NCBI GenBank assembly: GCA_903899375.1
Contig: CAIUIT010000090.1
Location: 1-39,799 of the forward strand
DNA length: 39,799 nt
Direction: 5' to 3'
Source: an uncultured Actinomycetes bacterium
GTDB taxonomy: Bacteria > Actinomycetota > Actinomycetes > Nanopelagicales > Nanopelagicaceae
In this document: positions 37,223 through 39,799 of the stretch, in pieces
How positions within the stretch are numbered: the first letter of the stretch is position 1
How the letters are laid out: every line of letters begins with the position of its first letter
Notes under the pieces: generated by a model
Told to the model about the DNA's origin: nothing
Databases searched by the model: none
Seen by the model: the letters and a program-made list of their open reading frames with translations, nothing else
Position numbers and translations under genes: made by a program

Positions 37223-37310
37223 GGTGGCGTGTCTGAGTGGCCTAAAGAGCACGTCTCGAAAGCGTGTGTTGGGTAACCAACCGTGGGTTCAAATCCCACC
37301 GCCACCGCCA
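37223..37310 (+). tRNA. tRNA-Ser with anticodon CGA
   Basis: The 88-nt gene folds as a class II tRNA: acceptor GGTGGCG pairs with CGCCACC (37300-37306), discriminator G at 37307, and CCA is encoded at 37308-37310. The anticodon stem CACGT/GCGTG closes the loop CTCGAAA with anticodon CGA at 37257-37259, reading UCG. The long variable arm is GTTGG-GTAA-CCAAC, and the T arm has GTGGG/CCCAC. Identity elements fit serine. Confidence 0.95.
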
Positions 37311-37321
37311 TAAAGTTTCAG

Positions 37322-39679
37322 CTACTGGTGATTAATAATGATTTCGTACGATGGGTTGAGAATTACAAGGTTGCCATCAGTTTCGCCGACCATACCTTCA
37401 GCGCACAATATGGAGCCGACTTCGAGCCCTGTGATCTCGCGTCGTCCGATAAATTGCAAGGTGATTCCGCCCGTTTCATCCCAAATCTCGATATCGACAT
37501 GAGGTGTTGAATTTGCAGGAGCATTTCGGATGTTAGTTACATGTCCAGTGACATGGGCCCGATGGCGCCATTGTGCGGCAGCGATGGGGTGGATATTTTC
37601 AGCGTAATGGCTGGTCTCTTCGAGTGTTATTGGTTCATCATCTAAACGACGAGTTTGAGATTTGGCAGGGATCTCTTCTGTGAGATCAGTTCCATGCTCT
37701 TCATGAACGGTTATTTGCCCACCGGTAATGATTCGCTCGACGTCAAATGGAATAATCGTCGCAACAACGCGTGGTAACTGCGATATAGGATCGGCAATTG
37801 CTTCAGCGGTGCGATCATGCATAAGGCGCCCAACAAAGCTGGAATACGAACGGCGAGGAAGTAGAAGTGTGAGTTCTACATCGGGTGATGTCGTTGCCCT
37901 AATCGCGTAATCAAGCGCGGCATTAGGAAGTCTGCGATCTGGGCAGTCAATAAATTCAATTGCTACATCTGCAAGAGCGGGATTGAGCATCCACGCTTTC
38001 TTTATTTCTTCTGCATGTTGATCATCGAGCACGAAGTGCACAGCTGAAACGCTGCGTGGGTTTACACTGCGCGCATAGCGGACCGCTCCAATTGTTGCTA
38101 GATCCACAATGTCCACGAGAACTGTTACCTCGTGGCGAGCAATAGTTACCGCACGAGTATTAATAGCATCAACTTTAAGTGCCGTTTGTTCCAAGCGATA
38201 TCTGCGGTTGAGGCGATTGAGCGCATAAACCAATATTGGTGTAATCGCTAAGACGACCCAGGCACCTTCGGTAAATTTAACCACTGCGAAAATTACGATG
38301 ATGCACGCAGAGACAATTCCAGAAAGTAAGTTAACAATGTTTCTATATGCCCAGCCCTTTGTTCGTTCTCTGCGTGCTTTCGATGCCATCCCAAAGCCGA
38401 CGAGAGAAAATCCGGTAAATACTCCCAACGCATAAAACGCGACCAGGCGATTAACTGAGCCGCCGGTTACCAGCACCAGCGTTGTTGCACCAGCTGCCAA
38501 GACAATAATTCCATTTGAAAATGCTAGGCGGTGTCCGCGCTTACTCAATTGACGGGGCAGGAATCCATCATTGGCAACAAAGTTAACAAGATAAGGGAAG
38601 CCAGAGAATGCAGTATTTGCACCAGTAATCAGGATCAACATGGTTGCTGCCTGCACAACATAGAACCAGACGGTGCCAAAAGTCGCCGATCCCATGGTTG
38701 CTTTTACGACTTGTGAAATCACGGTAGGTGAACCAGATGTATACGGCGTGGAAAATGTTCTATGCGCAAAGTAAGAAACACCAAAGACCATCGAGCCTAG
38801 AATCACTGACATAGCAACCAAGGTCTTGCGTGCGTTCACACCTTCTGGAGTGCGGAAGAGTGAAACACCGTCAGAGATTGCTTCAAGGCCAGTTAGTGAG
38901 GATCCGCCGTTTGCAAATGCGCGGAGCAAGATAAAGATTGCAGCAAAACTTAAAAGACCTTGAGCATGTCCGATGGCTACGGCACCGTGCAAGGTCGATG
39001 GATCATATTTTGGCAGGGTGCCGCGCATGATGCGGTAGATACCTGTTATGAACATAACCGTGAGTGAAATTACGAAGAAATACGTTGGCAGAGCGAAGGC
39101 GGCTCCGGCCTCTTTAACTCCGCGAAGATTTCCAAAAGTCAAAATTCCAATCACAACCAAGGTCATAATCACTTTGTAAGGTTGCAAGGCGGTGAACGTC
39201 GACAGGATTGCATCAATGCCCGCGGATGATTGAATCGCGACGGTCACGGTGTAATCGAGCATCAAGGCAACGGCAGCAATTTGAGAGAAGAGTGGTCCTA
39301 AATTATCTCGTGACACCACGTATGCCCCACCGGATCGCGTGTAGACCTGTACGACTTCGCGATATGAGAAGGTAACAATGACAAGCACGATGAGTACGAC
39401 CACTGTCATCGGCATCAAGATGCTAAATGCAGCTATGCCAAAAGCTGGGAGTAAGGCTAAAAGAATCTGCTCAGAACCGTATGCAGATGACGAGATGCAA
39501 TCGGAAGCCAGAATTCCTAGCGCGAATGTTTTGCTCAAACGTTGATGTGAAAGCGAGTGCCTATTGAGTGGCTTTCCTAAAACGGCCTTCTTGAGTTTGT
39601 AAGAAAGCGGGTCTTTCAGGTGGGCGTGCTCCTTGAGAACCTTGGGCTGCGGAGCGTCATCTATCCAAGCTTTTGGCAC
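37322..39679 (-). CDS. KimA-like potassium importer (APC fold) with C-terminal OB-fold fusion
   Basis: This 785-residue membrane protein has three parts. Residues about 45-490 form a 12-helix APC-type transporter similar to KimA/YdaO high-affinity K+ importers (SSSAYGSEQILLAL, GGAYVVSRDNLGP, LDYTVTVAIQSSAG). Residues about 505-660 form a cytoplasmic alpha/beta domain like that of KimA. Residues about 700-785 form an OB-fold with VTGHVTNIRN, DIEIWDETGGITLQFIGR, ITGLEVG and ILNPSYEI. The OB part closely resembles a separate small protein encoded beside TrkA and APC permease genes in other actinobacteria. Start GTG at 39679 follows AAGAAGG. It ends 12 nt beyond the convergent tRNA-Ser. Potassium is inferred from family similarity. 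Confidence 0.88.
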   Translation of the reverse strand: MPKAWIDDAPQPKVLKEHAHLKDPLSYKLKKAVLGKPLNRHSLSHQRLSKTFALGILASDCISSSAYGSEQILLALLPAFGIAAFSILMPMTVVVLIVLVIVTFSYREVVQVYTRSGGAYVVSRDNLGPLFSQIAAVALMLDYTVTVAIQSSAGIDAILSTFTALQPYKVIMTLVVIGILTFGNLRGVKEAGAAFALPTYFFVISLTVMFITGIYRIMRGTLPKYDPSTLHGAVAIGHAQGLLSFAAIFILLRAFANGGSSLTGLEAISDGVSLFRTPEGVNARKTLVAMSVILGSMVFGVSYFAHRTFSTPYTSGSPTVISQVVKATMGSATFGTVWFYVVQAATMLILITGANTAFSGFPYLVNFVANDGFLPRQLSKRGHRLAFSNGIIVLAAGATTLVLVTGGSVNRLVAFYALGVFTGFSLVGFGMASKARRERTKGWAYRNIVNLLSGIVSACIIVIFAVVKFTEGAWVVLAITPILVYALNRLNRRYRLEQTALKVDAINTRAVTIARHEVTVLVDIVDLATIGAVRYARSVNPRSVSAVHFVLDDQHAEEIKKAWMLNPALADVAIEFIDCPDRRLPNAALDYAIRATTSPDVELTLLLPRRSYSSFVGRLMHDRTAEAIADPISQLPRVVATIIPFDVERIITGGQITVHEEHGTDLTEEIPAKSQTRRLDDEPITLEETSHYAENIHPIAAAQWRHRAHVTGHVTNIRNAPANSTPHVDIEIWDETGGITLQFIGRREITGLEVGSILCAEGMVGETDGNLVILNPSYEIIINHQ

Positions 39680-39759: not shown

Positions 39760-39799
39760 TGGCGGAGAATGAGGGATTTGAACCCTCGAAAGGTTGCCC
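39760..39799 (-). tRNA. Partial tRNA-Ser (3' part)
   Basis: Only the 3' part is in the window. On the minus strand, CCA ends at 39760, discriminator G follows at 39763, and ATTCTCC forms the acceptor 3' strand. The T arm GAGGG/CCCTC has loop TTCAAAT, and ACCTTTC is part of a long variable arm. The long arm and discriminator G indicate serine. The anticodon lies outside the window. Confidence 0.8.

Follow-up and report, generated by a model that had tools for sequence, protein, structure and literature searches.

What does an OB-fold domain do at the end of a potassium transporter? The question is raised by a single gene close to one end of the 39,799-nt stretch of Nanopelagicaceae DNA analysed here (the window), in which a transporter of the KimA type and an OB fold are read as one protein.

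A KimA-type transporter and an OB fold in one protein

The gene lies on the minus strand at 37322..39679 and encodes 785 amino acids in a single open frame, with a GTG start preceded by a Shine–Dalgarno-like AAGAAGG. On the same strand, residues 27–499 (38183..39601) form a KimA transmembrane domain of 12 helices, with 8b70 as its best PDB match, and residues 500–648 (37736..38182) a PPAT-like alpha/beta cytosolic domain, modelled as an alternation of strands and helices. They are followed by a flexible linker (residues 649–697, 37589..37735; pLDDT < 50 over 654–694) and by the OB-fold domain (residues 698–785, 37325..37588), which was recognised by PF01336, by a structural model (ma31e7356cfe9) and its structure matches, and by homology to stand-alone OB proteins. 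KimA, the PPAT-like domain, a linker of about 50 residues and the OB domain in one protein are a real fusion, and the architecture proposed by a first-pass annotation (KimA, a cytosolic alpha/beta domain and an OB fold in one frame) was confirmed by homology, profile and model. Chance, an assembly error or another local artefact is ruled out by the purifying selection on the OB domain (dN/dS = 0.02 against the closest relative, with a similar value for the transmembrane domain) and by its fusion in nearly all relatives.

The full-length model has a pLDDT of 72, with residues 654–694 lacking structure, and a pTM of 0.61, at which the placement of the OB domain relative to the rest is unreliable. 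Across 45 homologues the linker ranges from 44 to 71 amino acids with a mean identity of 24%, compared with 65–70% for the transmembrane, cytosolic and OB domains. Judged by this pattern of conservation, with constrained OB and transmembrane domains joined by a free linker, the protein is built as if a regulatory subunit were tethered to it.

Immediately downstream of the fusion lies a tRNA-Ser(cga) at 37223–37310. Upstream of the fusion, positions 39760–39799 of the window look like a fragment of another minus-strand tRNA-Ser, and relatives carry a tRNA-Ser(gga) upstream of their fusions. In one member of the family (G094, L043:3276-5619), KimA and OB are encoded in two frames that overlap, the sign of either a split gene or an erroneous frameshift.

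Distribution of the fusion among actinobacteria

Within the window's family (f1), 103 of 121 genomes gave a match, 2 of these by weak chance-level matches only, and the fusion is present in nearly all matches of full length. Named relatives in the family include Candidatus Planktophila and Nanopelagicaceae. A profile scan of named genomes, with the fused alignment as its query, returned 80 loci, all of them fused. At class level, the fusion occurs in about 14 actinobacterial families (f1, f4, f7, f10, f11, f12, f14, f18, f21, f24, f27, f34, f38 and f41); the OB of f4 and f38 has diverged so far that a profile finds it but a single-sequence search does not. The fusion is thus widespread and not peculiar to the window's genome.

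KimA-clade members without an OB domain also occur, as tandem copies in f4 and as copies in f19, and genomes of f36 (for example L241 and L242) hold a solitary KimA relative with no OB match. The tandem unfused pairs in f4 (L130:3112-9647 and L134:2932-9462) lie beside a protein of ~650 amino acids with weak TrkA-like matches.

A stand-alone OB protein in the ceoBC locus

The first-pass annotation had also pointed to a similar OB protein encoded by a separate gene in other actinobacteria. Such a protein exists, and the similarity holds in a profile comparison: fused and stand-alone OB sequences (45 versus 20) aligned with hhalign at 99.85% probability (E 9.4e-31, 35% identity), and the two are homologous. 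DGxG, GRRxI and NPxY motifs are common to both, whereas the stand-alone protein comes from a separate gene beside DUF3159 or ceoC and is net positive. M. tuberculosis Rv2694c is presumably a member of this stand-alone family.

We found the stand-alone gene in one conserved locus in all 20 sampled loci, drawn from 20 further genomes of nearly all different families. As far as contigs reach, the order is DUF4193–DUF3093–dut–OB–(DUF3159)–ceoC–ceoB–KimA–TrmA, and OB and KimA share a strand. The expected proximity to TrkA-type genes and an APC permease is therefore a fixed place, not a random one. Unrelated conserved genes lie in the locus as well, and so neighbourhood alone is no proof of partnership. 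In 354 genomes outside f1, OB and KimA were both present in 283, both absent from 42 and found singly in 29 (11 + 18), an odds ratio of 60 with a Fisher p of 6e-30 that overstates the case because related genomes are not independent. The OB gene remains in the locus of one genome (L225, G201) from which KimA is gone from its place. In a coordinate comparison of 28 genomes, 8 had no nearby KimA among the best matches listed, a signal due at least partly to that restriction and to the listing of a paralogous KimA; in one of the 8, G135, the locus does hold KimA.

An old fusion of a paralogous KimA

An unrooted tree of 66 KimA proteins and B. subtilis KimA (BsKimA) placed the KimA of the ceoBC locus (K1), unfused in 20 of 20 cases, on one side of a 100% branch, and the fused KimAs in a second clade with a few unfused members. 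Because fused KimA forms its own paralogous clade, the fusion is old and does not consist of neighbours run together; a recent fusion of adjacent genes is rejected. A KimA/APC permease does adjoin the stand-alone OB gene, but the fused KimA is not this permease: the tree assigns it to a paralogous clade. K1 belongs to the same transporter family (~33–37% identity) and has an OB partner gene in its locus; K1 is unfused, whereas the window's KimA is fused. In the OB tree, a single change separates fused from stand-alone sequences, on a weakly supported branch (82; only 88 columns). The simplest reading of these trees would be one old actinobacterial fusion with later OB losses in some paralogues. 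The simplest account of the present distribution would likewise be that the fusion replaced the KimA/OB pair in some, partly streamlined, lineages, although an unrooted count gives no proof of direction.

Joint replacement of KimA and OB

In the window's own genome, the ceoBC locus is intact on contig C35 (L099:3580-8651), with exactly KimA and OB missing. TrmA, CeoB, CeoC, DUF3159, dut, a thioesterase, DUF3093 and DUF4193 keep their order and orientation; dut and DUF3159 overlap by 4 bp at the expected OB position, and the starts of TrmA and CeoB lie ~12 bp apart. We observed the same absence of KimA and OB from the locus in two other genera (L115 and L116). In two further lineages the separate OB gene is gone, and the fusion either occupies KimA's position (L109) or adjoins TrmA (L105). 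Fused and separate forms lie side by side in L100, genus g14 has both forms, and genus g6 retains the genes as separate units and lacks the fusion. The loss together of exactly KimA and OB where the fusion exists is the strongest evidence that OB works with KimA. The Rosetta-stone link originally proposed from the fusion itself is strengthened accordingly at the loci where the fusion took over (L099, L105, L109, L115 and L116).

A predicted K+/H+ symporter in a family with few other K+ importers

The phmmer match to B. subtilis KimA (6s3k, E 2e-95) covers residues 27–564 of the window protein and so runs from the transmembrane domain into the cytosolic domain, and a Foldseek search with the full-length model put the KimA structures 8b70, 8b71 and 6s3k on top. 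Identity to B. subtilis KimA is ~30%, with the same K+ and H+ residues: D36, Y43, T121, T230, E233 and Y377 (numbering after PMC6994465 and PMC10284832) are conserved without exception, both in the window protein and in each aligned homologue that covers them, D36 falling in the missing end of the partial L110. The window protein is thus, by prediction, a KimA-type K+/H+ symporter of the KUP family and of the B. subtilis type. Unlike B. subtilis KimA, it has both a linker and an OB domain. KimA-like proteins of Streptomyces have been listed previously (PMC10117811).

Of the 121 family genomes, none has TrkH above cut-off (11 of 14 control genomes do), 1 has KdpA and 4 have Kup, while TrkA_N is present in 118 and DUF3159 in 114. 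Among the importer types searched (TrkH, KdpA and Kup), KimA–OB would thus usually be the family's only recognised K+ importer. Trk/Ktr systems have a TrkH membrane subunit, whereas this family has no TrkH above cut-off and its CeoB/CeoC pair is therefore without the canonical partner. In actinobacteria CeoB/CeoC go by the name of a Trk system, despite the lack of a TrkH gene in their locus. Work on M. tuberculosis (PMC6375644, PMC12136442) has studied CeoBC as a Trk system for K+ uptake, and a term search of these two texts found mention of neither TrkH nor a neighbouring Rv269x gene.

Possible inputs to the OB domain

The KimA of B. subtilis has a c-di-AMP pocket in its cytosolic domain and is inhibited by this nucleotide (PMC10284832), which had been suggested as one option for the OB domain. 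This option fails in the window's family, where none of the 121 genomes yielded a diadenylate cyclase domain (DAC, PF02457), as against 11 of 14 known genomes in the control. Among fusion-bearing genomes outside the family, DAC is present in 9 of 10 tested and absent from G266; its absence from both the family and G266 means that c-di-AMP cannot be the fusion's general input. The window protein, like most relatives, retains R337, a c-di-AMP contact, but the BsKimA pocket motif HNQS (579–582) has become HD[QR]T (N580 to D, Q581 to Q or R, S582 to T), and the pocket neighbours P479, V506, F565 and F568 are not retained in the alignment to BsKimA. With no DAC and an altered motif, c-di-AMP is rejected as a ligand in the window's lineage, and with the established pocket in the cytosolic domain, not in OB, a c-di-AMP-sensing OB domain is hardly credible. 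A different small nucleotide (ATP, ADP or ppGpp) that is sensed by OB and gates KimA without CeoB/CeoC would be unlikely, though less so: the cytosolic domain of KimA has a nucleotide-binding (PPAT) fold (PMC6994465), and the conserved GRR and NPxY motifs of OB could form a putative pocket, but GRR is lost in about one third of fused OBs outside the family.

The fold of the domain invites another reading, in which OB binds single-stranded RNA, DNA or tRNA, as a nucleic-acid job or as a tether for the transporter, and its link to K+ is indirect. The C-terminal 88 residues score 24–25 bits (E 2–3e-5) against the PF01336 OB model, just missing the curated cut-off of 27 bits, and AlphaFold folds this part into a five-stranded OB barrel (mean pLDDT 87, barrel > 90). 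Its best VIA-align match is an archaeal RPA OB (Z 13.1, 87 residues aligned, rmsd 2.3), with further matches to PolC, RecG and AspRS/AsnRS OBs (Z 11–13). PF01336 matches 18 of the 20 stand-alone proteins, weak RecG-wedge matches occur and the stand-alone OBs are net positive (mean +4.2); a PDB sequence search with the stand-alone profile returned chance-level matches only. Function is not shown by fold alone, however, and the window's OB, mostly at 10–20% identity to PF01336, RecG-wedge and RPA OBs in structural alignment, sits in a transporter and not in a nucleic-acid enzyme. OB was replaced jointly with KimA and not with a nucleic-acid enzyme, and the family's fused OBs are net negative on average (−1.9, range −5 to +1), a drop in charge that speaks against general nucleic-acid binding, with the caveat that genome GC differs too. 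We regard nucleic-acid binding as quite improbable. Less likely still in our estimation would be an OB domain that merely stabilises the transporter or aids its assembly, with no switchable role: the variable linker and the loss of OB in some clade members are in keeping with it, but strong purifying selection on OB and its invariant motifs are not.

Discussion

Our data favour, on balance, an OB domain that serves as a dedicated working part of the KimA transporter. The genomic link between KimA and OB is well supported; ligand and mechanism are our inference. A KimA-type K+/H+ symporter would here carry its own regulatory subunit: the small OB protein, in most actinobacteria a separate product of the ceoB–ceoC–KimA locus, would be tethered to the transporter. 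Hanging below the cytosolic domain on a flexible linker of ~50 amino acids, OB may dock on the KimA dimer and thereby tune K+ uptake, both contact and regulation being predictions. The leading candidate for its input, put forward tentatively, is the CeoB/CeoC RCK pair, the alternative being a cytosolic ligand bound by OB. A bolder and more doubtful extension is that CeoB and CeoC are RCK gating subunits of the KimA symporter, OB their adaptor and the fusion a minimal version of that assembly. If true, an RCK pair with an OB protein and a LeuT-fold symporter would be a third way of regulating a K+ importer.

A literature search, with most subscription papers outside its scope, found nothing on a KimA–OB fusion or on the role of the OB protein, and Rv2694c and DUF3159 in passing mentions only. 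The fusion and the joint replacement would now assign to a K+ transporter an OB protein that is conserved across most actinobacterial families sampled and, we assume, also present in M. tuberculosis. The apparent absence of c-di-AMP synthesis from the family raises the question of how KimA is controlled when its known inhibitor is missing. For the abundant freshwater Nanopelagicaceae, KimA–OB should be a central, and probably an essential, transporter.
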